The position numbers and the translations under genes are program-made. 53,395 nt of DNA from a virus, in the IMG/VR virus record IMGVR_UViG_3300029267_003268, positions 1 through 53,395 of that record; one strand, written 5' to 3'. The notes beneath the pieces were generated by a model. It made no database searches and was not told where the DNA came from. It saw nothing but the letters and a program-made list of their open reading frames with translations. Positions 922 through 49,541 of the stretch are shown piece by piece (the first letter of the stretch is position 1; each line of letters begins with the position of its first letter).

Positions 922-1010
922 CCATCAGGGGCATGTGAGCCGGCAGGCGGCGACCATGACACCCACAGGGGGGGTGTACTTTGTAAACGACGGGGCGGGG
1001 TATAGAACGG

Positions 1011-1031
1011 GAGAAGCACATAGGGCTTCTC
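1011..1031 (+). other. Hairpin in the gap after the small terminase
   Basis: GAGAAGC (1011-1017) pairs with GCTTCTC (1025-1031) around a 7-nt loop. No T-run follows directly, so it may be an attenuator or processing site rather than a terminator. The 922-1133 gap otherwise shows no supportable gene. Confidence 0.3.
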
Positions 1032-1133
1032 GCTCGCTCTGCTTCTCATTATCCTGCGTACATTTTCGGTTACATTCTGAAAAAAATACAGATTTTGCGC
1101 ATTTTGGTAGTTTAGGTAAGCTGGAGACAGATA

Positions 1134-1652
1134 ATGGAATGGAGTAGTGTGAAGGATGAAATGAAATCATTCTTTGGATTGATTGTGGCTTTGGTAGCCG
1201 TGGCGGTGTTGGCGGTGGCGGTGTTGGCCACCGACTTCATATTCACGACAGAGGCGGACACTGACTGGCAGCCGGATCGGGCGACGATAACGCCGGGCCC
1301 GGTCGCCTACAGCGGCCTTGTGGCAGACGCCGATAGTAGTGGTTGGTCTGAATCCGGGGTCATATCGGCTGATGGCATCGACTATGAGTTCGAGTGGAAC
1401 GACGAGGAGAATGAGCACAACCTAACGGACGCCTCCATTCGCGCGCTGGCTGAGACCGGGCGTCTGTGTGAGGTATTGGGCCATCAGTGGCGTGAAGGGC
1501 GACCCGGCGAAGGGTACGACCCTGATTTGGGCTTGACGTTGAAGTACGCAGACTATCATCCGGGCACCTTCTATCGCACCTGTACCATTTGCGGTACGTG
1601 CGAGTCGCGCTTTCTGTCCGATTGGTCCAGTGAGGCAGGGGACGAGGAATGA
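1134..1652 (+). CDS. Membrane-anchored protein with a Cys/His motif
   Basis: 172 aa, family not recognised. A hydrophobic helix near residues 11-33 (GLIVALVAVAVLAVAVLA) would anchor it in the inner membrane. The C-terminal half carries a C-x4-H pair (CEVLGHQW) and a CTICGTCES motif, which could bind a metal or form disulfides. GGAGACAG precedes the ATG by a proper distance. Its stop overlaps the start of the next gene (ATGA), indicating translational coupling. Its place between the terminase subunits does not reveal its role. Confidence 0.6.
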   Translation: MEWSSVKDEMKSFFGLIVALVAVAVLAVAVLATDFIFTTEADTDWQPDRATITPGPVAYSGLVADADSSGWSESGVISADGIDYEFEWNDEENEHNLTDASIRALAETGRLCEVLGHQWREGRPGEGYDPDLGLTLKYADYHPGTFYRTCTICGTCESRFLSDWSSEAGDEE

Positions 1653-1921
1653 CAGATCGAACGACAATTGAAGAATCGCTCAAGATGATATTTCGCCTGC
1701 CGATGGCTCAGGTTCAGCACACGGACCACAGCATACGGCAGGCGGCGCAGACATACCTGCGTACCTTGTGTACCTTGGCTCGGGCGCGAATCGGCGAAGA
1801 TTGTAAAGCGGCCGGCGAAGACCCGCGCGATTGGGAGGTCAAGATCACCAACGAAGTCGTCGAGGGAATGCTACAGCTTACGGTTGTTCCGCAAAGGAAA
1901 CGAGGAATGAACCCGACGTAG
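1649..1921 (+). CDS. Hypothetical protein between the terminase subunits
   Basis: 90 aa, soluble, mostly helical in appearance, no recognised domain. It starts in a 4-base overlap with the upstream membrane-protein gene and has a basic C-terminus. It is co-transcribed with the terminase genes, so a packaging accessory role is possible but not shown. Confidence 0.55.
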   Translation: MTDRTTIEESLKMIFRLPMAQVQHTDHSIRQAAQTYLRTLCTLARARIGEDCKAAGEDPRDWEVKITNEVVEGMLQLTVVPQRKRGMNPT

Positions 1922-1977
1922 GAGAGTACGAAGCCCGCTTTGGGGCCGTGAGACAGCCTTCGAAGCCATAGGGGCCT

Positions 1978-4662
1978 GTGGAGCAAATGGTCGCATTGAC
2001 CGATACAGAACGAGTAGTAGCCGAGCGGTTATTCCGATACGGGGCCGATCCGCGCGGTTTCACTATCCACATTCTCAACCATCCCGCCGAGTACTACTGG
2101 CCGAAGATGCAGGAAGTGGCCGAGAGCGTGCGCGACTATCAGTTGACCGCCGTCCCCGCCGGCCACTCGGTCAGTAAGGCGTTAGAAGTTAGCACTCCGA
2201 TTCTCACGCCGTCTGGTTTTGTCTCGATGTCGAACCTTGCCGCCGGTGATATTGTCTACGGCGAATACGGCCAGCGTATTCATGTCACGGGTCGTTCTCC
2301 GGTCCGGCGTCGCCTGTCGTATGAATTGACCTTTGACGACGGGGCTTCTTTACTTGCCTGCGACGAACACTTGTGGGCGGCGCACGATTATGTGTCTCGT
2401 ACGCACATGCGTCGCCAGTGCCGTCAGGAGTATCGAGCGTCCTGGTCTTCGTCGCGCCTTGTGAACACGCTGGGGATTGCTTCGGCGTTACGCCACAACG
2501 GCCAGACCAATTGGTCCATTCCCGTTGCTTCTGCCGTGCGTGGTCGGTCCCATCTGTCGGGCGCTTATACGATTGGTTTTTGGTTGGGCGACGGCTGTCG
2601 GGGCACTGCGGTGGTGACGATTGGCGATGGCGATGCACCGGAGGTGTTATCTCGGATTGCGGCCGATGGTTTTTCGTGTAGCCGTCAGCCCTCTGCCGAC
2701 CAGGAGAATTGCAAGAATTACACCATCCACGGTTTGCGTGGTCTCTTGCGTAGGTATGGTATTTTCAAGGACAAGCGCATCCTGGTTCGCTGGTTGCGCT
2801 TGCGGTACGAAGATCGACTGGCGTTATTGCGCGGGTACATGGACGCCGACGGCTGGCGTCTGGCCCATGGCAAATCCGCTGCTGTTGGCACGACGGACCG
2901 GCGCATGTACGAGACGGTTGTTCCGTTCGTTGCCTCCTTCGGAAACAAGGTCTTTTGTAAGACGGAGACCATAACATACAAAGGTCAGCCGAAACTCGTA
3001 TACAAGCTGAACTTCACGCCTCGTGACCAGCCGTTTTGTTTGGCGCGAAAGCAATTACAGAACAGCCTCAGCGTTCACGCACGCCGGCGACAGACGGCTC
3101 GCATGATCTTGGATTGTCAACCTGTCGGCGAAAAGGATGTCTGCTGTATTGAGACCGACAACCCAAGCGGTCTGTATTTGGCTGGTCCTCATTTGGTGCC
3201 GACCCATAACACCCACGGCGCCGGGCGTATCGTTCCCTGGTTCAAGACTTGCTATCAGCCGTCCACGGTGATTACGACGGCCCCGTCGGACAATCAGGTT
3301 CGCAATCAGCTCTGGCGTCAGATACACGGGGCGTATGCGGCAGCCAACGGTGTGCTGGGCGGGAAGATGACGGCGTTGCAGTGGGACCTGCGGCCCTCGG
3401 ACGAGGTATTGCAGCAGATGGACCCGGCGGAGCGGCAATGGTGGTTCTTGAACTTCGCCATGGGCTTTTCGACGTCTCCGGACACCGTGAGCGAACACGC
3501 AACCAAGATCGCTGGCTGGCACAACCGCTGGATGCTCATCGTCCTTGATGAGGCGTGCGGCATTGCCCCCCCGATTTGGCGGACGGTCATGGACGCACTG
3601 GTCATCAACGAACAAGTCAAGGTCCTGGCTATCGGCAATCCCACGGACCCGGAAGCGGAGTTCGCGGCGGCCTGCCGCTTGAACGGTTCCCTGGAACATC
3701 TCGCCGCGCCCAACGGGGACATGCGCGGGCCTTCCGTATCCTACATGGGCGACGAAGGCTGGCATGTGGTACCCGTCTCCGTTTTTGATACCCCCAACTA
3801 CAAGGAAGGCACAGAACGGATTCCCGGTTTGGCGGGGCGCTCGTACGTCACACTGATTGAGAAGAAGCATCCTCCCGGCAGTAACGGCTGGCTGATTCGG
3901 CTGCGCGGGGCCTTCCCTTCGCACAAGGAGGGCACGTACTACGGGTACGAGCTGTCCCAGGCCAAGAGCCAGAACCGCATCGGCCGCTTCCCCCATGATC
4001 CCACCTTCCCGGTCTACTGCTTCGCCGATCTCGGGGACGTTTACACGGCGGCGATTTGGGTGCAGTTCATTCGCGACCGCGTTCGGGTCATCGGCGATTA
4101 CTGGGACAATAACGGCATCGTGAAGGTGCTCGGCGATACCCACACGGTAGATGGGGCCGGGGCCGAGGCGTTCGCCCGCGCCATGCACAGCGTTCCTTAC
4201 ACCTGGGGCAAGCAGCATTACGCCGGGCCCGACCTGACCGGCAGTAACGCCAAGAAGTTCGGCCAGTCCGGCCAGACGACGCAGACGCTGCTGCGCAGTC
4301 TCGGCTTCAATTTCCAGCCGTGCGAGAACGTAGGTTTCAACGAGGGCATTCAGAGCGTTCGCAATCTCTTCCCGCTTTTGGATATCGACGCCGCCGGCGC
4401 AGCTACCTTTGTCAAGGCCATTACCGGCTACCACAAGGCCAAGAACGCCGGGCTCAGTACGCAGGACGAGGCGGCCTTCCACAATCAGCCGGCGGCTACC
4501 TGGCACCGGCACACGGCCGACGCGCTGCGGCACTTGGCCGTCGCCTACGAGTACAATACGATCAACGGGCAATACCTCGGGTCCAAGCGGGTCATCGCCC
4601 AGTACCGTACTATCCAGCGCGGCAAGCGCGGTAAATATGACCCGATGGAATGGGTCGCATAA
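1978..4662 (+). CDS. terL: Terminase large subunit interrupted by an intein
   Basis: 894 aa precursor; removing the 344-aa intein leaves 550 aa, a normal length for this ATPase-nuclease. The joined extein P-loop reads GHSVSKTHGAG, so the intein sits between the Walker A Lys67 and the following Thr. Walker B is MLIVLDEA (Asp524, Glu525). The C-terminal nuclease shows acidic residues in FADLGD (Asp684) and TADALRHL (Asp848). It pumps DNA into the prohead and cuts the concatemer. GTG at 1978 is given as the start; ATG at 1987 is an alternative, and neither has an ideal ribosome site. Activity should depend on protein splicing, since the ATP site is split. Confidence 0.93.
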   Translation: MEQMVALTDTERVVAERLFRYGADPRGFTIHILNHPAEYYWPKMQEVAESVRDYQLTAVPAGHSVSKALEVSTPILTPSGFVSMSNLAAGDIVYGEYGQRIHVTGRSPVRRRLSYELTFDDGASLLACDEHLWAAHDYVSRTHMRRQCRQEYRASWSSSRLVNTLGIASALRHNGQTNWSIPVASAVRGRSHLSGAYTIGFWLGDGCRGTAVVTIGDGDAPEVLSRIAADGFSCSRQPSADQENCKNYTIHGLRGLLRRYGIFKDKRILVRWLRLRYEDRLALLRGYMDADGWRLAHGKSAAVGTTDRRMYETVVPFVASFGNKVFCKTETITYKGQPKLVYKLNFTPRDQPFCLARKQLQNSLSVHARRRQTARMILDCQPVGEKDVCCIETDNPSGLYLAGPHLVPTHNTHGAGRIVPWFKTCYQPSTVITTAPSDNQVRNQLWRQIHGAYAAANGVLGGKMTALQWDLRPSDEVLQQMDPAERQWWFLNFAMGFSTSPDTVSEHATKIAGWHNRWMLIVLDEACGIAPPIWRTVMDALVINEQVKVLAIGNPTDPEAEFAAACRLNGSLEHLAAPNGDMRGPSVSYMGDEGWHVVPVSVFDTPNYKEGTERIPGLAGRSYVTLIEKKHPPGSNGWLIRLRGAFPSHKEGTYYGYELSQAKSQNRIGRFPHDPTFPVYCFADLGDVYTAAIWVQFIRDRVRVIGDYWDNNGIVKVLGDTHTVDGAGAEAFARAMHSVPYTWGKQHYAGPDLTGSNAKKFGQSGQTTQTLLRSLGFNFQPCENVGFNEGIQSVRNLFPLLDIDAAGAATFVKAITGYHKAKNAGLSTQDEAAFHNQPAATWHRHTADALRHLAVAYEYNTINGQYLGSKRVIAQYRTIQRGKRGKYDPMEWVA
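2179..3210 (+). other. Class 3 intein with LAGLIDADG endonuclease
   Basis: The 344-aa insert runs from Ala68 to Asn411, followed by Thr412 (+1). It lacks the usual Cys/Ser at position 1. It carries the three residues that define class 3 inteins: Trp133 two residues after the block B His (DEHLW), Cys390 in block F (DVCCIE), and Thr409 before the terminal His-Asn (PTHN). Two homing-endonuclease blocks are visible, GFWLGDG near residues 200-206 and GYMDADG near 286-292. The insert looks less GC-biased at wobble sites than the flanking extein, suggesting later arrival. By eye the element looks intact. Confidence 0.9.
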
Positions 4663-4672
4663 GGAGACAGAC

Positions 4673-5053
4673 ATGATTGCACCGATAGCACAAGCCGTTA
4701 AGAGGATGCCGTTGTTGCTGGCGTGTAAATGCGCCCGGCACGCGGTAGTACTACCGCGCGGCGAGGGGAAAATGGTATGGGCCTGCTCGGCGTGCGGGGC
4801 CGGTCAGGAAGTGGAGTTCGGACGTGACGACCGCAACCCGGCGGGCGTGCAGTTCGGCTCGCGCCGCCGCCCGGTAGAGTTGGAATGCCCCTGCGGCCAG
4901 AAGGACCTGATTGTCCTGCCGTTGGGCAAGGGGACGCTCGTCTGGTCGTGCGGGCACTGCAAGCAGCGCTGGCGCATTGATTTTACCCCTACGACCGAGC
5001 AGATCGCCAAGGGCGTGAAGATCGTGGCGCCGTTTGAGAAGGAGCCGAGCTGA
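4673..5053 (+). CDS. Double zinc-ribbon protein
   Basis: 126 aa with two similar halves. Each has a paired-cysteine knuckle: CKC with CSAC, then CPCG with CGHC. Each half also repeats the pattern VLPxGxGxxVWxC. Two zinc ribbons formed by internal duplication are the likely fold, giving a nucleic-acid or protein-binding role. AAGGAGACAG lies just upstream of the ATG. It follows terL and precedes the portal gene. Confidence 0.7.
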   Translation: MIAPIAQAVKRMPLLLACKCARHAVVLPRGEGKMVWACSACGAGQEVEFGRDDRNPAGVQFGSRRRPVELECPCGQKDLIVLPLGKGTLVWSCGHCKQRWRIDFTPTTEQIAKGVKIVAPFEKEPS

Positions 5054-5085
5054 TGAGTTCGCAAAAGCCGTCCAAGGAGAAGTAA
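5053..5085 (+). CDS. Possible 10-codon peptide
   Basis: ATG at 5053 overlaps the TGA of the zinc-ribbon gene and opens MSSQKPSKEK followed by TAA. It may be a coupled microprotein, the remains of a longer gene, or chance. Confidence 0.2.
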   Translation: MSSQKPSKEK

Positions 5086-5098
5086 CTGACGGCATAAC

Positions 5099-5222
5099 CG
5101 ATCCAAAAAAGATGACGGCACAGGCGGGTCGCTCCCGCTGAGATGCCTTAACCATCGCGACCGTTAAGGGGCCGCGTCGGGCGTACCGCACGCTTGGACG
5201 CGGCCCCTTCTTTTTTGGATCG
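5099..5222 (+). ncRNA. Candidate structured RNA closed by a 14-bp stem
   Basis: A perfect 14-bp inverted repeat (CGATCCAAAAAAGA at 5099-5112 with its complement at 5209-5222) encloses three hairpins: GCGGG/CCCGC at 5124-5138, CCTTAAC/GTTAAGG at 5146-5169, and an 11-bp GC-rich stem at 5168-5207. The whole is a cloverleaf-like layout of about 124 nt filling the terL-portal gap. It could be a small RNA, a mRNA processing element or a switch. The closing stem shares the T-run of the terminator below, so the two folds compete. Confidence 0.45.
5168..5216 (+). terminator. Rho-independent terminator between packaging and portal genes
   Basis: GGGGCCGCGTC (5168-5178) pairs with GACGCGGCCCC (5197-5207) and is followed by TTCTTTTTT (5208-5216). 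The form is canonical. Its place inside an otherwise continuous late operon suggests attenuation of, or separate control over, the head genes. Confidence 0.75.
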
Positions 5223-5237
5223 CAATAGAGGATACAG

Positions 5238-6995
5238 ATGGCAGACCGCACGACAGTAGAGAATAAGAAGGCCGGGCAGGCGCAGCTCGCCGGGAAGTCC
5301 CTGGCCCAGCGGGTAGAGCAGCGTCACAAGAACTGGACGGGCTCGACCGAGCGCAACAACTTCGAGCTGCGCGTTCGCGACGTCATCAAGTATTGCCGCC
5401 CGGATCTGCGGCAGTATATCTCGGGCGCGCCGGGCAAGTCGCGCGGCGCCGAGATCTATACGAACAAGCCGCAAACGGACTTGGAGCACGCCTCCGACGC
5501 CTTCTGCGGCAACGTCTTTCTGCAATTCGGCTGGTTCAAGTTCTCCACCGGCGTACCGGAACTCGACGCCGACAACGAGACGCAGAAATGGTCCCAGCGG
5601 CAGGAAGATCATATGTACCGCACCTATGCGGATCGCGGCTTCTACGAGGTGATGCCGCCGCTGGCGATGGACGCCTTTAGCCTGGGCGAAGGGGCGATGT
5701 TCCTCGGGCTCGAGGACGACGGACCGTCCTACGAATACTGCGAGATGATGGCTACCTGGTTTCGTCGCGACCGGCGGGGCCGCATTACGGCCATGCACCG
5801 TCGCCATGACTTTAGCGCTGCCGAAGCCTACGAGCGCTGGGGTCTGGATTGCTCCGACGAGCTGGTGCGCTGCGCTACGGGCAGCGATAACGACCGTCGC
5901 TTCAGCTTCATTCAGGCCGTCTACTCCGCCACCGACCCGATCCTGCATGGCATAACCCTGCCGAAGACCGAACGCGGGGACGATTTCGTGCAAATCTGGA
6001 TACAGGAGCGGTCGCGAAAGAACGAGTTGCCCGGTGACGCCTTGCAAGGCGTGCTCGGCAAGCTGGAAACCTATCCCGAGATGCCGCTGATCTCGTGGCC
6101 CTACTGGTGGAAGAACAATGAGACGTACGGCCGGGCCGCCCTGCACCTCGCGACGGTGATGCGCCTGCAAGGCTTCGCTAAGGATACCATGCTGGCCAGT
6201 CAGCGGCTCGTGGCTCCGCCTCTGGTCGGCTCGCGCAGCTTAGCCGATGCGCTGGACCTGAGCGGCGACGGCGTGACCTGGAAGGACAATCCCGGCGATA
6301 GCCTGGAGCCGGTCTACAAGGGGGCGATACGCTACGATTTCGGTGTGGATCTCATTCAGCGCACAGGCGAGGAAATCGAGAACATGCTGCACCTGCCCGT
6401 CTTCAAGGCCATGACCTACATGGCGCAGCAAAATATGCGAGTGGACCAGGTACTGGAGATCATCGGCGAGAAGGCCGCGTCTCTGATGGGCCGCCTGGGC
6501 CTGCTGGACAGGCTGTTCCTACAGCGGGTTCACGAGCGGACCTGGGCCATCGAATGGCGGGCCGGGCGGATCGAGCCGCCGCCGGCGAAAGTCGCGGAGT
6601 ACATGGAACGCCGTCAGGAACAGAACGCCGTCCAGGGCCGTCACGAGTCGGGTATGCCGCTGCGAGTGCAGTACAAAGGCCCGCTGTCCTACGCTCAGGA
6701 GTCCCTGTTCCTGCGCCGCCGAGTGGCGATGGGCCTGAGCGGGGTGCGTGTACTGTCCGAAATGGGGCCGGAGATGGCCACGCAGGTCATCGACCGGATC
6801 AACGGCGACGTCGCAGCGGAATGGATTCTCGATCAGAGCGGCTTCCTCCAGGCCGCCATTGCCAGCAACGAAGACGTGAACGACCGGCGGGCAGAACGCC
6901 GCGAATTGGAACGCGCCCAAATGAACGCCGATCTCGGTAAGACGCAGAGCGAAGCGGCGCGCAACCTCAGTCAAGTAGCAAAGGAGACAGCGTGA
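5238..6995 (+). CDS. Portal (head-tail connector) protein, T7-like
   Basis: 585 aa, the usual size for podoviral head-to-tail connectors. The portal ring occupies one capsid vertex, docks the terminase and later the tail. The N-terminal pattern (RNNFELRVRDVIKYCRPDL) and the long helical middle and C-terminal segments suit the T7 gp8-like connector family. The position, after terminase and before scaffold and capsid, fits. AGAGG precedes the ATG. Its stop overlaps the next start. Confidence 0.8.
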   Translation: MADRTTVENKKAGQAQLAGKSLAQRVEQRHKNWTGSTERNNFELRVRDVIKYCRPDLRQYISGAPGKSRGAEIYTNKPQTDLEHASDAFCGNVFLQFGWFKFSTGVPELDADNETQKWSQRQEDHMYRTYADRGFYEVMPPLAMDAFSLGEGAMFLGLEDDGPSYEYCEMMATWFRRDRRGRITAMHRRHDFSAAEAYERWGLDCSDELVRCATGSDNDRRFSFIQAVYSATDPILHGITLPKTERGDDFVQIWIQERSRKNELPGDALQGVLGKLETYPEMPLISWPYWWKNNETYGRAALHLATVMRLQGFAKDTMLASQRLVAPPLVGSRSLADALDLSGDGVTWKDNPGDSLEPVYKGAIRYDFGVDLIQRTGEEIENMLHLPVFKAMTYMAQQNMRVDQVLEIIGEKAASLMGRLGLLDRLFLQRVHERTWAIEWRAGRIEPPPAKVAEYMERRQEQNAVQGRHESGMPLRVQYKGPLSYAQESLFLRRRVAMGLSGVRVLSEMGPEMATQVIDRINGDVAAEWILDQSGFLQAAIASNEDVNDRRAERRELERAQMNADLGKTQSEAARNLSQVAKETA

Positions 6996-7210
6996 AGACC
7001 GACGCTTCCGTAGCAGTTGCACAGATCTTGCGGCGGGACATCTCCGGTGATGCCGCCCATATCGTCGCGGCGATGGGGCACCTTGATATGGGCGCCCGCG
7101 TCGCGGACCACGACCAGGTGGTCGAGCAGAACTTCGCCAAGCGGCTCTTGCAGGCCGCCGGCTATCAAATTGACCTGATTCAGAAGAAGGAGACACCTAA
7201 TGCCGACTGA
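6992..7210 (+). CDS. Small hypothetical head-region protein
   Basis: 72 aa, helical, GTG start with AAAGGAG 7 bases upstream and a GTGA overlap with the portal stop. No family recognised. Located between portal and scaffold, it may help early head assembly. Confidence 0.6.
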   Translation: MKTDASVAVAQILRRDISGDAAHIVAAMGHLDMGARVADHDQVVEQNFAKRLLQAAGYQIDLIQKKETPNAD

Positions 7211-8057
7211 CACAGACGCGACCCTCCCAGAGGCCGAACCGACGACCAAGTGGTACGAGGACGAATCCTGGGGCTTCGACCCGGACGAGCATTTGCCTAC
7301 CGTCTCGCGCTATGATACTCGCCAGGCGTTCGGCCGGGCGTTTTTCGAGCAGCGTAAGAAGATCAGCGAGCAGATTGCACCGCTCGATCTGACCCAGCCG
7401 CCGGAGAAGTACCTGCCGGAACTCAAGGCCGCCCGGCTGCGGTTGGGGGCGCACGAGAACTCGGAGGACTATAAGCTGGTAGTCCCCGACGATCTCCAAG
7501 AGACGATGACGAACCGGCTGCCTACGTTCGTAGAGGACCTCAAAAAGGAGGCCGCCGAGTTCGGCTTGACCGACGTTGAGTTCGAGACCCTCGCTACGCG
7601 GCGCCTCGAAGACGTGCGCACGATCCTGGCCGCCGAGACCAAGGCCGCCGACGAAGCCACGCGGGAGAAGAACGAGCGCACGGCCCAAATGGAGGAGCTC
7701 TACGAGCGGATTTGGGGTAAGAGCACGCCGGAACACAAAGCCCACGCCGTTCAATTCGCCAAGCATTACGACGATACGCTGTTCGTCGCGGACAACGAAT
7801 CGCTTAGTGAAGAGGAGCGGGGCGAAAAGGGCGGCCGCCTCGTACAGCTTCTGCGCAGCAGCGACAATCCCCTGCTGTACCGACTGTTCGCCTCGCTGCA
7901 CGGCAAGCTGCTGGCCGAGCCCGGTACGCCCGACACCAGTACGATGCCCGCCGGGGGCGGGGCCTACGCCGAGCGGCTCCGTACCGTCAAGGCGATGTAC
8001 CCGAAACGGCCGGAACTTTGGGACCAATTGGCCTCCGACCCGAGGGTTGAACTATGA
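7200..8057 (+). CDS. Probable capsid scaffolding protein
   Basis: 285 aa, highly charged, with a predicted long helical middle (repeated E/K/A stretches near residues 100-165) and an acidic N-terminus. Scaffolds are typically encoded between portal and capsid genes and have this composition, which is the main basis for the call. A strong AAGGAGACACCTA site precedes the ATG. No protease motif is visible. Confidence 0.6.
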   Translation: MPTDTDATLPEAEPTTKWYEDESWGFDPDEHLPTVSRYDTRQAFGRAFFEQRKKISEQIAPLDLTQPPEKYLPELKAARLRLGAHENSEDYKLVVPDDLQETMTNRLPTFVEDLKKEAAEFGLTDVEFETLATRRLEDVRTILAAETKAADEATREKNERTAQMEELYERIWGKSTPEHKAHAVQFAKHYDDTLFVADNESLSEEERGEKGGRLVQLLRSSDNPLLYRLFASLHGKLLAEPGTPDTSTMPAGGGAYAERLRTVKAMYPKRPELWDQLASDPRVEL

Positions 8058-8254
8058 AACTGGACGCAACTAATTTCACCTACCAGGGCCATCGACTCTG
8101 GATACAAGACGACGAGGACGGCAGCGCTCGCGCCGCGATGGACTATCGTATCGGCGAAATCGGCCAGCGCGTTCTGCTCGTTCAAGACAAGAACCTTCCC
8201 GTAGAAGAAAGGATCGTACATGGCAAAGAAGAAAGAGACACCCCAAGTGCCTGA
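8054..8254 (+). CDS. Small hypothetical protein
   Basis: 66 aa, begins in a 4-base overlap with the scaffold stop and extends 35 bases into the next gene. No recognised motif. Translation is probably coupled. Confidence 0.5.
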   Translation: MKLDATNFTYQGHRLWIQDDEDGSARAAMDYRIGEIGQRVLLVQDKNLPVEERIVHGKEERDTPSA

Positions 8255-19834: not shown

Positions 19835-22800
19835 ATGGCGACCTTTACGACCAAACAGATTGACGATGCCTTCGCCGCCGCCGATACGGTCAACAGCGAT
19901 ATCGAGCGAGCGTTCACCGCCGCCGACGCAGCCCAGCCGAAGAAGCGACGGACGCAGTTTGGGTTCGGGGCGATGGGTCCGCGCGTCGAGCCGTTGCCGA
20001 CGAAGACCCGCAGCGAAGTGGCCGCCGACATGGTGAAGGATCACGACCAGACGGGCCTGAGCTATCCGGATCTGTTCGGCATCTACGATCAGGCCGGCTC
20101 GCAGAGCGATAAGGCTGCCGCCCTGGACCAGCTCATTCTGCGCCGTCAGTATCGCGGCGTCCTGGACGAAATCGGGATGGGACTGGAATCGGGGGCCGCC
20201 AATGTGGAGGGCAGCGCCGCAGGGACGCTCGGCAGCGCACTGCGCCGCGTGGCCCGGTCGCCGTTGTTCTACGGCCTCACGCGGTTTGGTCCGTTCAACT
20301 ATGATGCCGCAAAGGTGGAGCGGGTCGGGGCGGCGTGGGACGATTACGCCCAGCAGCTCTACGACTATTCCAGTTCGCCGCTCTTTCAGCCTGGCAAAGG
20401 GGCCGGGGCCGGGGGCTGGCTGGCCAATACCGTCGCGAAAACGGCGCCCATGATGGGTCTGGCGACCGGGGCGACCTTGGCGACCGGCGGGGCGGCCGGG
20501 GGCTTTCTCGTCGGGGCCGTGGTGGAGGGCGATAACGCCTACCGCGAAGCCCTGGCCGACGGCGCGTCCGAGGAAGAGGCGCAGATGGCCCGCTACGTCG
20601 TGGGAACGGTCAACGGCGTGATTGAAGTAGCGCAGGTCGGCCACATTATGAAGCTGGGCAAGGGCGCTTCCAAGGCGGTTGCCAAGGAGTTCGCCGGCGA
20701 GGCCAGCGATCGCGCCTTGAAGAAGATTGCCCGCGTGGTCGGCAAGCTCGGGAAACAGCATATTGAAGCCTCGATCAAGGAGGGACTCGAAGAAGTGGCC
20801 CAGGAATGGGTCGGGGCCGGGGCCGCAACGATCATCTACGATAAAGATATCGACGTTGAGGACATGATAACACGGCGCTCCCCGACGGCCTTCGCCGGGG
20901 GGGCCGGGGCGGGGTTCTTCTTAGGCGGCGGGTCGCTGGTCTTCAACGCCGCCACAGAGATCGCCGAGGCGACGACCCCGGCTCAGGCAGAGCCCGAAAT
21001 CCCGCAGATGCCGATGGTCGCTACAAAGGAGACGTACGATGCGGCCGTAGCCGAACGGGAGAAAGCGGTCGCCGCACAGCAAGCCGAGACCAAACCCGAA
21101 GCCAAACCGACCGAAGAAAAACAGACCCCGCCCCCGGCCACACCCACCGAGCCGACCGTTGAGGCAAAAGCGCCGGGGGAGGCGGGGCCTGGGGAATGGA
21201 CAGAGGAAATAAGCCCTAAGACGGGCGACATCACCAAGAGAATCCGAGGAGTAGTCCCAAAAGGAGAAGAAGGCGAAGGGGGGGCGATAGAGGTTACGCT
21301 AACATTCAACAAAGACGGAAGTCTGCGCTGGGTTACGGCGAACCACCCCGGAACTCATAATTTTGAATCACAAGTCCAGTTAGACATCGGATTTTTCCCA
21401 GACGGGGCTGGAGGCTTTCGCGCACTTACGGTCCACGATGACCCGTCTTTGGTTCTGCCGCGAATAGACGATATTATCACCCCGGCGACGCAAGAAACAA
21501 TGCCGGGCGCGGCGGGGCCTGGGGAAGCCACTACCGAAAAGGAGGCCGAACATGCCGAGCGTATCCCAGAAACAGGCGAACTTCATGCGGATGTGCATGA
21601 GCAGCGCCGGGCGCAAGAAGGCCAAGAAGAAGTGCCCGCCGAAGAAGGTGGCGAGGCATTACGTACAGGCCGACCGACGACTGAATCGGTGGGGGCTGTA
21701 GAGGCCCGCGAGCCGTGGGAGATGACGAGGGAGGAATATGCCCCACCGCCTCCCGCAGGTGTTTCAGAAGAGGCTCGCCACAAGGGCATGTTGGATGTCT
21801 CCGCTGTACGGGCAGGCTACGCCGCTGTATTGCGAGGTTTGGAGCCCGCCCGGTTGGTGATTGAAAAACATGGCCGTGCGCCCTATGCGGAAGTGATTAA
21901 GGCTATGCACCGGCCGGAGGCCGAAACGCTGGAATTCAACGACGCCCGCCTGGACGCCGTCGATGCGACCGTAAGTGAATTTGAGAAGGAACTGCAAAAG
22001 TACCCGGACAACGTTCTCGAAATGGTGATGCTCTCGCGCGGTCACGGGCTTGAAGGCAAGGCGCGGGCGCTGCAACGAGAAGCCTTTGCCAAAATGCCGA
22101 AGGCGCTAAAGGACTCGAAGATTCGCCGCGCGCTGGACGAAATCGCCGATGACAATTATCGCTACCTCCAGGAAGTCGCCGGGAAGGATGTAGGTAAGGT
22201 CGAAGACTACTTCTACGGCATCTACAAGGGCGGACGCAAAGTCAGTGCTTTCCTCAAACACTGGCGGACCACCGATCGTTATACCAAGCGCAAGAGCTTT
22301 CCCACCTACGCCGACGCCAAAGCCTTCGGGCTGGAAGCGCGAACGAAGAACCCCGTAGAGAATCTGCGGAGGGAGTTTCAGGCGATTGCGCGCCGGACCG
22401 CCATGCAGCAGTTGCACGATTACATGATGGCCGAGGGCAAGGGTATCTATATTGAAGAAACAGACAAGGCGCCTGCCGATTGGGACTTTATCGGGGACCC
22501 GTTGCGACCGGAGCCGGCCTTTGTCGACGCGCGCGTTGAACCGACAATGGCCGCGCTTATCAACAGCCTGATTTCTACCAATAAGATTACGCAGAACAAA
22601 GCCCTGAACGTGATGCGCAAGGTGAACAATGCCCTGCGCAGTTTGAAGTTCATCGGCAGCGCGTTTCACGCCTGGCAGATTGCCAAGCAATCTATCGCTG
22701 ATACCGGCTTCTTGGGTTTCTACAAAGGGACGTCGCGCACGGGCTTCAAGGCACTCTTTACCAACATGACGAAAGACCCCGCGCTGCGTCCTGCGTACCG

Positions 22801-24211
22801 GGACTATATTGAGCACGGCGGCGGCCATCAATACTCTATTGAGTCCGAGGCCCAGCGCGCCGTCAAGAGCATGATGCACGAACTCGACGCAGGGTCCAGG
22901 GTAATCCTCAAAGGCGTAGCGGCGCCGTTTAAGGTGCCCGTTGGTTTTGTGAACTGGATGTTCGAGCAGTACATCCCGGCTGTGAAGTTCGGTAAGTACC
23001 TTGATTCTGTGGGCGAAGCGGTCGGAAAGCAGGGCCGGGAGCTTACCTCGGTAGAGAAGATTGAGCTTATCAAAGAACAGCAGAATTTCTATGGCATGAT
23101 GAACGAACGCCTCTTTGGCCGTAGCGGAACGGTAACGACCGCCTTACGGTTTATCTTCATGGCGCCGGGATACGCGGAGGGCAACTATCGTACGATGTTC
23201 AAGGCCGCCACCCAATGGGGACGCGGGGCTGAGGGTTACAGCGCCGGGCGGTCCCGACGCAATATCGTCAATTCGTGGGTAGTGACTGGGACGCTTGCTA
23301 CCATTGGGACGATAATCCTGACTGGCAAGCCGCCTGAGAAACCGGAGGATCTGGATGATGTACGAGACCTATTGAAGATCGATACTGGCAAGAGAGACCA
23401 ACACGGCGACCGGATTATGATCGATCTGGCCAGCTACGATAAAGATTACTGGAACGTGGCCTTCAATACCCTGCGCGGTCGGCCGGACAAAGCGGTTACG
23501 GAATCACTCAAGCGGATTGGCGGTATGAAGGCGACCAGCTTTGAGATGCTTCACGATGCACAATCGCTGTTTCTGGGCAAGGCGATCTACGATTGGAAGG
23601 GCGACATGGTTTATCGTCCGACCGACCCGTTCGTAGAGAAAATGGCCGAACTGTTTGCACATGAGTTACGCAGGCTGGTCCCTATTTCCGTAAGCGTATT
23701 CAGTCAGAGTCGAAACAAGGGCCTGGATGATTCAGTCGCCGCAATGGAAGCGTTGATTGGATTGCGACCGACCTATGATGAGGATACCTTGAGCAAACGT
23801 GCCGCTATGCGAGACTGCTGGGACCTTCGCGAGAAGCGCGAAGCATTGGCGTGGCGATTGGATCAGTACAAAGATCCCTGGGGGGCAATAGAGTATTACA
23901 ATGAGCAGGTGAAACGGGTGCTCAAGCCCGACTTTGTGCCGAACGATATGCGGCAAGAATGGGAGAAAAAGCTACTTATTGATCCGGTTAGGGTCCTCAA
24001 TTGGAAGCATTTCCCGCCTCATGCAATGACGCTTGCGCAATTACGCAAGGCTATCGCGTCGCACATATATAAGAAACCGTACACTCGCAGTGACGGGCGA
24101 CGCTATCCTGCGGGGCACCCTCATACGGGTTATGAAGATCGGGTGGCGACGTTGCGAGCTGAACTGCAAAAACGTTCTGCCTCTACGCAAGGGACAAGGA
24201 GTACGCGATGA
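19835..24211 (+). CDS. Large internal virion or polyvalent protein (gp16-like)
   Basis: 1458 aa, the largest gene. The N-terminal third has Gly/Ala-rich hydrophobic stretches (GLATGATLATGGAAGGFLVGAVVEGDN and FAGGAGAGFFLGGG) that could insert in membranes. A Pro/Glu-rich linker follows near residues 410-450 and again near 560-640. The C-terminal 700 residues are helical and resemble the large polyvalent protein domains (LPD38 type) common in giant ejection proteins. It is probably injected with the DNA. No lytic transglycosylase motif could be identified. A domain flanked by direct repeats is described separately. Stop overlaps the next start. Confidence 0.7.
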   Translation: MATFTTKQIDDAFAAADTVNSDIERAFTAADAAQPKKRRTQFGFGAMGPRVEPLPTKTRSEVAADMVKDHDQTGLSYPDLFGIYDQAGSQSDKAAALDQLILRRQYRGVLDEIGMGLESGAANVEGSAAGTLGSALRRVARSPLFYGLTRFGPFNYDAAKVERVGAAWDDYAQQLYDYSSSPLFQPGKGAGAGGWLANTVAKTAPMMGLATGATLATGGAAGGFLVGAVVEGDNAYREALADGASEEEAQMARYVVGTVNGVIEVAQVGHIMKLGKGASKAVAKEFAGEASDRALKKIARVVGKLGKQHIEASIKEGLEEVAQEWVGAGAATIIYDKDIDVEDMITRRSPTAFAGGAGAGFFLGGGSLVFNAATEIAEATTPAQAEPEIPQMPMVATKETYDAAVAEREKAVAAQQAETKPEAKPTEEKQTPPPATPTEPTVEAKAPGEAGPGEWTEEISPKTGDITKRIRGVVPKGEEGEGGAIEVTLTFNKDGSLRWVTANHPGTHNFESQVQLDIGFFPDGAGGFRALTVHDDPSLVLPRIDDIITPATQETMPGAAGPGEATTEKEAEHAERIPETGELHADVHEQRRAQEGQEEVPAEEGGEALRTGRPTTESVGAVEAREPWEMTREEYAPPPPAGVSEEARHKGMLDVSAVRAGYAAVLRGLEPARLVIEKHGRAPYAEVIKAMHRPEAETLEFNDARLDAVDATVSEFEKELQKYPDNVLEMVMLSRGHGLEGKARALQREAFAKMPKALKDSKIRRALDEIADDNYRYLQEVAGKDVGKVEDYFYGIYKGGRKVSAFLKHWRTTDRYTKRKSFPTYADAKAFGLEARTKNPVENLRREFQAIARRTAMQQLHDYMMAEGKGIYIEETDKAPADWDFIGDPLRPEPAFVDARVEPTMAALINSLISTNKITQNKALNVMRKVNNALRSLKFIGSAFHAWQIAKQSIADTGFLGFYKGTSRTGFKALFTNMTKDPALRPAYRDYIEHGGGHQYSIESEAQRAVKSMMHELDAGSRVILKGVAAPFKVPVGFVNWMFEQYIPAVKFGKYLDSVGEAVGKQGRELTSVEKIELIKEQQNFYGMMNERLFGRSGTVTTALRFIFMAPGYAEGNYRTMFKAATQWGRGAEGYSAGRSRRNIVNSWVVTGTLATIGTIILTGKPPEKPEDLDDVRDLLKIDTGKRDQHGDRIMIDLASYDKDYWNVAFNTLRGRPDKAVTESLKRIGGMKATSFEMLHDAQSLFLGKAIYDWKGDMVYRPTDPFVEKMAELFAHELRRLVPISVSVFSQSRNKGLDDSVAAMEALIGLRPTYDEDTLSKRAAMRDCWDLREKREALAWRLDQYKDPWGAIEYYNEQVKRVLKPDFVPNDMRQEWEKKLLIDPVRVLNWKHFPPHAMTLAQLRKAIASHIYKKPYTRSDGRRYPAGHPHTGYEDRVATLRAELQKRSASTQGTRSTR
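21181..21526 (+). repeat. In-frame domain insertion bounded by 16-bp direct repeats
   Basis: GGCGGGGCCTGGGGAA occurs at 21181-21196 and 21511-21526, exactly 330 bp apart, so the frame is kept. The enclosed 110 codons form a compact beta-rich domain (VTLTFNKDGSLRWVTANH) unlike the Pro/Glu linkers around it, with visibly lower GC. Both repeats encode AGPGE. This looks like a domain gained by recombination between short repeats. Confidence 0.65.
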
Positions 24212-33248: not shown

Positions 33249-33281
33249 CCCCTGTGGTTGTAGCTCTCAGACAAATTGACT

Positions 33282-33353
33282 TGCGGGGTAGTGTAGTGGT
33301 AACACGCTGGGCCCATAACCCAGAGATTGCGAGTTCGATTCTCGCCCCCGCTA
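33282..33353 (+). tRNA. tRNA-Met (CAT), initiator-like
   Basis: A complete cloverleaf can be drawn: D stem GTGT/ACAC, anticodon arm CTGGGCCCATAACCCAG, 5-nt variable loop AGATT, T arm GCGAG-TTCGATT-CTCGC, and acceptor GCGGGG/CCCCGC. The anticodon is CAT (33314-33316). The stem has three stacked G-C pairs below the loop, and position 33 is C instead of the usual T. Pair 1-72 is T-T, unpaired. GGG/CCC and a 1-72 mismatch are initiator hallmarks; the T11-A24 pair is elongator-like. The discriminator is A; no CCA is encoded. It lies about 140 bp upstream of the integrase. Confidence 0.88.
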
Positions 33354-33426
33354 TTATGGGCTCGACACATTAGACTGCGGCTCTTTGGCAAGTTCATATG
33401 AGGATGCACAATGGAAACATAACGTC

Positions 33427-33455
33427 TTGCGACCTATGACTGGTGTTGGTACGAT
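33427..33455 (+). promoter_or_regulatory. Possible integrase promoter
   Basis: TTGCGA (33427-33432), 17 bp, then TACGAT (33450-33455); each hexamer matches consensus at four of six. A 6-bp hairpin GTCGGC/GCCGAC (33459-33478) follows in the leader and may limit translation. Confidence 0.4.
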
Positions 33456-33496
33456 GCGGTCGGCTTGCGAGGGCCGACTGGAAAGTAGGTGTTATC

Positions 33497-34438
33497 ATGC
33501 AACAGTCAATCGCAAGCTGTTTCGAGCTATATCTGGCTCGATCTGACTTACGCCCATCGTCGGTAAGGTTCAAAAAGCAGGCGTTGCGGTACTTTCTCAA
33601 GTGGTTCGGCGATCTGGAAATTGGGTCTGTTACCCCTGCGATAGCAGAAGACTATCGGACGCTGCTGGTGAAAGAAGGGCGGTCGCGAAGCACGGCCAAC
33701 GGCTATCTCGCGAACTTCAAGCCATTCTGGAACTGGCTCAGGCGGCACGGACGAGTCCCGGCAAATCCGTTTGACGGGGTTAAACCGTTCAAGATTACCG
33801 AACCGGCGCGGGAGACGTTTACGCCCGCCGAACTGGCGCGATTGATGACGGTAGGCGACCCGCTATGGCAGGGGCGCATCTGTCTCGGACTGCTGGGCTG
33901 TCGGCGTGGTGAAACGCTCAACGTGACCGTCGCGGACATCCATTTGGATGCCACCGTGCCGCATATCCTGCTGGCACCGAAGACGGTGGGACCGGACCGC
34001 TGGGCCTGGGAACTCAAGGATCATGCGATCCGGTACGTCGCGTTGCCGAAGATGATGCGGTTTGTCGGGCGCACGGTGGATCTGCACGGGTTGATTGGTG
34101 GCCTGATAGCAGCGTTGCCGTCAGGTCAACCGTATGTGTTTGTCGAACCGCGTTACTACCGGCGATGCGTCGGTCGAACGTGGGTACCGGACCCGACTGG
34201 GAACTTTCAACGGATGTTCCGGGCCGTACAGCGCCGGGCACAGATCGAGCCACCGCGTAGGTATCACGAGTTACGAGCGGCTTTCGCCACCGCCATGATT
34301 GACGCCGTTGGGCTCAGTCGGGCGGCGGACGCACTCGGACACTCAACTACGCAACTCACACGAAAGTATGATCGTCACGGAAAGATGTCGTTGCTGTCGG
34401 AAATCGGTTCGGCAGCACAAAAATGTTATGTGTCGTAG
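33497..34438 (+). CDS. int: Tyrosine-family integrase
   Basis: 313 aa. Residues about 1-100 form a SAM-like core-binding domain (LRPSSVRFKKQALRYFLKWF). The catalytic domain shows Arg136 (GCRRGE), His257-x-x-Arg260 (HELR), His282 (GHST) and the nucleophile Tyr291 (TRKYDRH). It inserts the phage at its attachment site and marks it as temperate. The start is chosen after the leader hairpin; an in-frame ATG at 33443 would add 18 residues unlike the family. It sits between a tRNA gene and a set of short repeats, both typical of attachment regions. Confidence 0.92.
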   Translation: MQQSIASCFELYLARSDLRPSSVRFKKQALRYFLKWFGDLEIGSVTPAIAEDYRTLLVKEGRSRSTANGYLANFKPFWNWLRRHGRVPANPFDGVKPFKITEPARETFTPAELARLMTVGDPLWQGRICLGLLGCRRGETLNVTVADIHLDATVPHILLAPKTVGPDRWAWELKDHAIRYVALPKMMRFVGRTVDLHGLIGGLIAALPSGQPYVFVEPRYYRRCVGRTWVPDPTGNFQRMFRAVQRRAQIEPPRRYHELRAAFATAMIDAVGLSRAADALGHSTTQLTRKYDRHGKMSLLSEIGSAAQKCYVS

Positions 34439-48339: not shown

Positions 48340-48543
48340 ATGGCCAACAACTTTGACGTGATTTACGTCGTGAAATTGCCGAACGGCACGTACTCGATAC
48401 GGCGCAAGGCGGATCACGAGCCTATTGGGTACGTGGCGGTTCGCGAGAGCAAGGCAACGTTCACGTCGTATCCAGGGAAGATTGCCGCCGCCGAACAGGT
48501 CAGGATCGCTGCGTTCATGCTCAGTCTTGAGGAGCAAGGATGA
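48340..48543 (+). CDS. Small hypothetical protein
   Basis: 67 aa, beta-rich start (FDVIYVVKLPNGTYSIRRK) and helical end. AAGGAGCCATCTG precedes the ATG; its stop overlaps the methyltransferase start. Confidence 0.55.
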   Translation: MANNFDVIYVVKLPNGTYSIRRKADHEPIGYVAVRESKATFTSYPGKIAAAEQVRIAAFMLSLEEQG

Positions 48544-49541
48544 CCGACCTCCCTATCAACCAGATCGTGCAAGGTGACTGCATCGAGGTCATGGCCGACT
48601 GGCCGGAAAACTCCGTGGACATGGTCCTCGGGAGTCCGCCTTACGAAGACGCCCGAACGTATGGGATTGATTTCAGTCTCAAAGGGCAAGACTGGGTCGA
48701 TTGGATGGTGAAAGTCGTGCAAGCGTCCCTGCGCGTGTGCAGCGGGCTTGTGGCTTTCGTCGTGGAGGGCAAGACGCGTAAGTTCCGCTATTCCGCCACG
48801 CCGGTTCTGCTGATGGCAGACCTGCATCGGGCGGGGGTCCATCTTCGCAAGCCACCTGCGTTTCATCGGGTGGGCATCCCCGGCAGCGGCGGTCCCGACT
48901 GGCTGCGGAACGATTACGAGTTCATCGTTTGCGCCACCAACGGGGGACGGTTGCCGTGGTCGGACAATACGGCGATGGGACATCCGCCCAAATGGGCACC
49001 GGGCGGTGCGATGAGCCACCGCGTCAGTAACGGCTCTCGGGTGAACCAATGGGGGCACTCTGTTGATAGCGGGGCTACGGTAGTGGATGCAGAAGGCGTG
49101 GTGCGGAGCAAGGGACGAAGGCCCAGCCACTTTGAGCATAGAAAGGCGGACGGAACGAGTGTCCTGCGTGAGAACCGCCAAGTAATGTCTCGCGAACGCG
49201 ACGGCATCCATGCGCAGACACAAAATGGATATACAGTTCCCAAAAAGGCCAATCCCGGTAACGTCATCAAGTGCATTGTCGGCGGCGGCCAAATGGGCTC
49301 AAAGCTGGCCCATGAAAACGAGGCCCCGTTTCCAGAGTCGCTTGCCGAGTTCTTCGTGCGCTCGTACTGCCCGCCCGATGGGATTGTACTGGACCCGTTT
49401 TCCGGTAGTGGGACCACGGTGTCAGTGGCGATACGAAACGGTCGGCGGTTCGTCGGGATAGATATTCGAGATTCGCAGGTGGAACTTGGCGGGCGTCGCG
49501 TGCAGGAGGCCCGCAACGGGCAGAAGGGGCTTTTCGAATGA
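48540..49541 (+). CDS. DNA N4-cytosine/N6-adenine methyltransferase
   Basis: 333 aa. Motif IV is SPPY at residues 32-35 and motif I (AdoMet binding) is LDPFSGSGTT near the C-terminus, so the order is the beta class. SPPY is frequent in m4C enzymes, while m6A cannot be excluded. The region between contains target recognition. No partner restriction gene is near, so it is an orphan enzyme, probably shielding phage DNA. Confidence 0.85.
   Translation: MTDLPINQIVQGDCIEVMADWPENSVDMVLGSPPYEDARTYGIDFSLKGQDWVDWMVKVVQASLRVCSGLVAFVVEGKTRKFRYSATPVLLMADLHRAGVHLRKPPAFHRVGIPGSGGPDWLRNDYEFIVCATNGGRLPWSDNTAMGHPPKWAPGGAMSHRVSNGSRVNQWGHSVDSGATVVDAEGVVRSKGRRPSHFEHRKADGTSVLRENRQVMSRERDGIHAQTQNGYTVPKKANPGNVIKCIVGGGQMGSKLAHENEAPFPESLAEFFVRSYCPPDGIVLDPFSGSGTTVSVAIRNGRRFVGIDIRDSQVELGGRRVQEARNGQKGLFE

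Follow-up and report, generated by a model that had tools for sequence, protein, structure and literature searches.

Organization of the terminase locus

The DNA analysed here, referred to as the window, is a stretch of 53,395 nucleotides covering positions 1 to 53,395 of the viral record IMGVR_UViG_3300029267_003268. The precursor of its large terminase subunit (TerL) is encoded by an open reading frame of 894 amino acids at positions 1978 to 4662, located between the gene of the terminase small subunit (positions 406 to 921; Pfam GP3_package and PHROGs terminase small subunit) and that of the head-to-tail connector (positions 5238 to 6995; PF12236). These three genes, and all the parts of the TerL gene described below, lie on the plus strand. 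The TerL reading frame starts with a GTG codon at position 1978, and another in-frame start, an ATG, is found at position 1987. No terminase model of Pfam was matched by this reading frame or by three intein-less siblings, and the search of NCBIfam gave no useful match. Where Pfam is silent, the identity of the terminase is supported by matches to PHROGs terminase families and by fold comparison, the intein-less siblings being predicted to fold as TerL. The record IMGVR_UViG_3300017987_000171 (L002) shows no difference from the window over positions 968 to 8159 and was counted as the same phage.

The TerL gene is interrupted by an in-frame insert of 1032 nucleotides at positions 2179 to 3210, which encodes a class 3 intein with a LAGLIDADG homing endonuclease, 344 amino acids from Ala1 (codon 2179-2181) to Asn344 (codon 3208-3210). 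These limits, supported by translation, alignment, profile and structural model, coincide exactly with those of the intein in the original prediction, which was made from the sequence of the window before the present analysis. The N-extein of 67 residues (positions 1978 to 2178) ends with the P-loop lysine (...AGHSVSK) that directly precedes Ala1. The terminal THN of the intein is succeeded by the P-loop threonine (positions 3211 to 3213), which is the +1 residue and would serve as the second nucleophile. Both Ala1 and the +1 Thr, anticipated by the prediction, are read in the translation. The rest of the TerL reading frame extends from position 3211 to 4659. The limits of both exteins agree with the intein-less alleles described below, and the C-terminal part also with the fold comparison.

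Elsewhere in the window, a tRNA-Met gene (positions 33281 to 33354) lies directly upstream of a phage integrase gene (positions 33443 to 34438). This junction is a possible attachment site, and the phage may therefore be temperate. A protein of 1458 residues is encoded at positions 19835 to 24211, of which residues 196 to 432 weakly match a virion RNA polymerase family (phrog_2206, E 1.2e-4), and a gene for an N6/N4 DNA methylase (PF01555) is located at positions 48540 to 49541.

The insert carries the residues of a class 3 intein

Class 3 inteins were reportedly defined in the paper of Tori and Perler in 2011. Their position 1 bears no nucleophile, and a Trp, a Cys and a Thr (the WCT triplet) occupy positions B:12, F:4 and G:5 (PMC3196547, PMC7664689). 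The first residue of the insert, Ala1, is neither Cys, Ser nor Thr. In phmmer searches against solved structures, the best matches of the insert were the class 3 mycobacterial DnaB inteins (6bs8, E 6e-14 with the single sequence), and a profile of 59 rows reached E 1e-43 with 6bs8 and the class 3 chains as compared to 8e-13 with the class 1 gp41-1 chain 6qaz. The phmmer alignment places Trp66 (positions 2374 to 2376), the block F nucleophile Cys323 (positions 3145 to 3147) and Thr342 (positions 3202 to 3204) on the corresponding residues of the Mycobacterium smegmatis DnaB intein 6bs8, which are Trp67, Cys118 and Thr137 (PMC6195587). The original prediction had assigned the element to class 3 from the same three residues, numbered along the reading frame as Trp133, Cys390 and Thr409, and had named their displacement from the equivalent columns as what would speak against it; all three are in register with class 3 inteins.

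Conservation was counted in an alignment of 170 sequences, composed of the window intein, 12 relatives from the phage collection and 157 viral loci. The latter came from the best 80 of 528 and the best 80 of 529 retrieved, with resemblance to the query by tblastn required; L023 (the same phage), L167 (N-terminal end cut) and L182 (a stop or N inside) were dropped from the count. His64, at block B position 10 (positions 2368 to 2370), Trp66, Cys323, Thr342 and Asn344 are each present in all 170 sequences. The penultimate His343, which together with the cyclising Asn344 occupies positions 3205 to 3210, is present in 168; L050 and L098 are class 3 relatives in which Ser or Gly replaces this His (TSN and TGN ends). 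Because the retrieval patterns came from the LAGLIDADG motifs, the WCT residues were unselected in the 157 loci. Within these loci from the best 80 of 528 and the best 80 of 529, the +1 residue is Ser (102) or Thr (55), and a Lys precedes the intein in 137.

A profile built from 57 relatives, excluding the window and the second carrier L024 described below, was run against the six frames of the window. It matched the intein segment from end to end with 270.5 bits and gave no second match above 0 bits; among 200 versions of the intein with shuffled residues, the highest score was 3.1 bits. This indicates that the match is not due to chance. Besides, the WCT residues of class 3 are accompanied by a Cys at intein position 1 in Acidovorax phage ACF1 (L012:460-1512) and in the viral loci L081 and L083, possibly a mixed arrangement of class 1 and class 3.

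Predicted fold and homing endonuclease

The AlphaFold model of the intein, obtained with 59 rows, has a mean pLDDT of 95.2 and a pTM of 0.92. In its HINT part, 124 of 125 residues can be superposed on 6bs8 (Z 20.7, 1.3 Å, 36% identity), so that by this prediction the intein has the fold of a HINT splicing domain. The model also superposes on PI-SceI over 313 to 330 residues with Z of about 26 to 27 (27.0 for the whole model) and 17 to 18% identity.

Two LAGLIDADG motifs were located with the 170-sequence alignment and a profile alignment with PI-SceI, at residues 130 to 139 (positions 2566 to 2595, with Asp138) and 216 to 225 (positions 2824 to 2853, with Asp222 and Asp224). Of the 170 sequences, 148 have Asp and 20 have Asn at position 138, all have Asp at position 222, and 163 have Asp at position 224. 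Since both motifs can be aligned with their PI-SceI counterparts and the acidic residues Asp138 and Asp224 are kept, the nuclease looks intact. The two-motif LAGLIDADG homing endonuclease that had been foreseen is thus recovered as a putative, apparently intact enzyme.

The insertion site in the P-loop and its empty alleles

When the whole reading frame or the C-extein was used as a single query against the viral collection, nothing beyond the same phage was returned. Intein-less relatives were reached not by these single-protein scans but by an alignment of two rows (A2), the C-exteins of the window and of L024, which gave 27 TerL loci in viral contigs. No intein is present in 25 of them, and their sequences join exactly at Lys/Thr; the remaining two are L016, which is the same phage, and L194, the intein-bearing contig of L024. 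A search for such alleles in relatives had been suggested with the original prediction. Since the 25 alleles read straight through the site, they fix the excision product, and their number among the 27 homologous loci shows that this terminase family can do without the intein. All 21 intein-less siblings that were aligned have the same residues VSKT (alignment A4, in which the row of L199 includes residues upstream of its gene).

The structure of the intein-less sibling L183 was modeled with a pLDDT of 79.4. Comparison with the TerL of P74-26 (4znl) gave a Z of 21.4 for the ATPase domain, and the model also matches the terminases of T4 (gp17), HK97, D6E and Sf6, as well as the separate nuclease domains of P22 (4dkw) and SPP1 (2wc9). 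In the model, Lys75-Thr76 are located between the strand 64-69 and the helix 75-90, at the start of the helix, which is the usual place of the P-loop. The predicted fold and the intein-less alleles agree with the site originally proposed, and the insertion is thus placed between the Walker A Lys and Thr of the terminase ATPase. Because this Lys-Thr pair of L183 sits at the P-loop, the Walker A motif is split in the precursor, and the siblings give the sequence of the spliced product. In the window (positions 2158 to 2178 and 3211 to 3213), in L183 and in its siblings, this motif reads GHSVSKT. The classical Walker A motif has its last Gly at the position of the second Ser. The Walker A of this terminase clade is therefore unusual, yet it is used as an intein site.

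A second carrier and traces of mobility

Among the 27 TerL loci, and leaving the same phage aside, the only other intein-bearing allele is L024 (IMGVR_UViG_3300028595_000446), a locus of an uncultured phage with the TerL family, the insertion site and the intein class of the window. The identity between the two is 46 to 47% in the intein and 48% in the TerL extein. They are sisters in a tree of 112 intein rows (SH-aLRT 100). In the extein tree (27 rows including the window, 24 of them different, and with the upstream residues of L199 included), window and L024 stand apart, and well-supported branches force two changes.

The 18 bases located 5′ of the insertion site (positions 2161 to 2178, plus strand), a stretch that was picked after viewing the alignment, are identical to those of L024 at 17 positions and may be the footprint of a homing target. 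In the outer flanks of the site, 61 of 102 bases are identical between the two alleles. Only one other of the 276 allele pairs reaches 17 of 18, namely the near-identical intein-less L183 and L184, and the window shares at most 15 of the 18 bases with any intein-less allele. Judged from these bases, a possible origin of the shared stretch is that the intein homed into a fixed target in the DNA and that the adjoining bases were co-converted. An old shared intein that was lost many times also fits, because the intein (47%) and the extein (48%) are about equally diverged.

We also considered base composition as proof of a recent arrival. The GC3 of the intein is about 0.56 to 0.64, that of the C-extein, connector and capsid genes about 0.80. 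This candidate proof was rejected: the terminase small subunit gene (0.61) and the integrase gene (0.65) are equally low in GC3, and composition therefore does not single out the intein.

Cysteines of the window intein

Block B position 7, three residues before His64, is usually Asp in class 3 relatives and is Cys61 in the window (positions 2359 to 2361). The counts in the 170 sequences are Asp 109, Gly 23, Cys 15, Ser 14, His 6 and Asn 3, and the position is described as unconserved in class 3 inteins (PMC7891396). The nucleophile is adjoined by Cys322 (positions 3142 to 3144). A Cys at this place is found in three of the 170 sequences (window, L033 and L085), whereas L024 has Lys. Cysteines at both 61 and 322 occur in the window alone, 1 of 170 in a set that includes the best 80 of 528 and the best 80 of 529.

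In DnaBi1 of M. smegmatis, a class 3 P-loop intein, redox control has been shown, a disulfide between the nucleophile and Cys48 pausing splicing (PMC6195587). A redox switch of the DnaBi1 type was rejected for the window intein, since the equivalent of the partner Cys48 is Ser in the phmmer alignment, which leaves only the weaker cysteine pattern. It is improbable that this pattern marks a new, redox-gated layout of class 3 intein, with a three-cysteine active site (61/322/323) whose disulfide would keep TerL inactive until the cell is reducing; if true, redox gating would time DNA packaging.

Proposed mechanism and alternative explanations

We consider with high confidence that the class 3 intein in this tailed-phage TerL gene is full-length and probably active, and that it is a homing element lodged in the P-loop, where the gene is most conserved. 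The anatomy of the element, its class, its site and the intein-less alleles are observed, and its fold is predicted. From the chemistry of the family, we infer that the HINT domain of the window intein would fold within the precursor and that Cys323 would attack the Lys-Ala1 bond, so that the N-extein would be held in block F as a thioester. Next, the acyl group would be transferred from Cys323 to the +1 Thr, Asn344 would cyclise with the help of His343, and an acyl shift would give the normal P-loop ...GHSVSK-THGAG.... The LAGLIDADG domain would cut intein-less TerL alleles, and in this way the intein would spread. Because 344 residues separate the Walker A Lys and Thr, the unspliced precursor should be devoid of ATPase or packaging activity. 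That ATPase activity requires splicing, as stated with the original prediction, can be soundly deduced from the position of the insert; that packaging could be tuned by the splicing rate is a proposal of a kind already published for cyanophage Mic1, to which the window adds at most a possible redox arrangement of cysteines.

The same gene might instead carry an intein that has decayed and lost its ability to splice, the terminase being dead or supplied by another phage. A class 3 pseudogene, Arth_1007, is a precedent (PMC3196547), and block B position 7 of the window intein is Cys rather than the common Asp. However, this position varies among class 3 inteins (PMC7891396), and Arth_1007 has neither the His at B:10 nor the Cys at F:4, both of which the window keeps. 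With catalytic residues and splice junctions all intact and the reading frame open, decay is very improbable. It is scarcely conceivable that a class 1 or bacterial-intein-like element was misread as class 3: the HINT fold is common to class 1 inteins, but Ala1 is no nucleophile, the WCT triplet is present, and the profile strongly prefers class 3 chains (1e-43) to 6qaz (8e-13).

We give little credence to the view that the same intein is retained as a regulator, in which a disulfide among Cys61, Cys322 and Cys323 would delay splicing under oxidising conditions so that packaging waits. It can draw on the pausing of DnaBi1 by its Cys48-nucleophile disulfide (PMC6195587), on the pair of cysteines 61 and 322 unique to the window among the aligned sequences, and on the suggestion that TerL inteins control packaging in cyanophage Mic1 (PMC7156551). 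Against it stand the Ser at the place of Cys48, the 25 of 27 homologous loci that have no intein, the other carrier L024, which lacks Cys322, and the nuclease, which looks intact and is typical of a mobile element.

Comparison with known inteins

PI-SceI, the yeast VMA1 intein, belongs to class 1. It combines a HINT domain with a two-motif LAGLIDADG nuclease in the arrangement predicted for the window intein. The class 3 P-loop DnaB inteins of M. smegmatis (DnaBi1, 6bs8) and M. chimaera (DnaB1, 6rix and 6riy) match its HINT domain at 1.3 to 1.7 Å and have Ala1, WCT and the THN end in common with it. DnaBi1 is located in the P-loop of DnaB, is devoid of a nuclease and has a +1 Ser (PMC6195587), whereas the intein of the window combines a LAGLIDADG nuclease with a +1 Thr and resides in TerL rather than in a helicase.

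In mycobacteriophages, TerL is described as the commonest intein host, and the TerL1-a site between its P-loop Lys and Thr was described in 2016 (PMC5050341). A class assignment of the TerL1-a inteins was not found in the portions of the published literature that were accessible. The TerL intein of LittleE has W, C and T in the columns of the window, Lys/Thr flanks and 31% intein identity; the TerL of the window differs from that of LittleE and of the TerL1-a mycobacteriophages. The class residues of the window and a Lys/Ser or Lys/Thr site are also found in the TerL P-loop inteins of Microcystis phage Mwe-JY05, Clavibacter phages CN1A and CMP1, Salmonella phage 66FD and Klebsiella phage RaK2, with 24 to 35% identity to the window intein. 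That RaK2 and K64-1 have inteins in their large terminases was pointed out in 2017 (PMC5259590). In the available part of PMC7824862, inteins are mentioned a single time, and not in TerL. A collection of 2020 comprises 1701 class 3 inteins, 82.5% of them with LAGLIDADG motifs (PMC7891396).

The kind of intein found in the window is thus already well known, with hundreds of such inserts, many at this spot. To these known systems the window adds a clean P-loop class 3 case, in which one terminase family includes intein-less alleles as well as a second carrier. Its use is mainly comparative, as the empty alleles give the splice junctions without experiment, and the two carriers (window and L024) together with empty sites such as L183 and L197 form a system for a test of homing.
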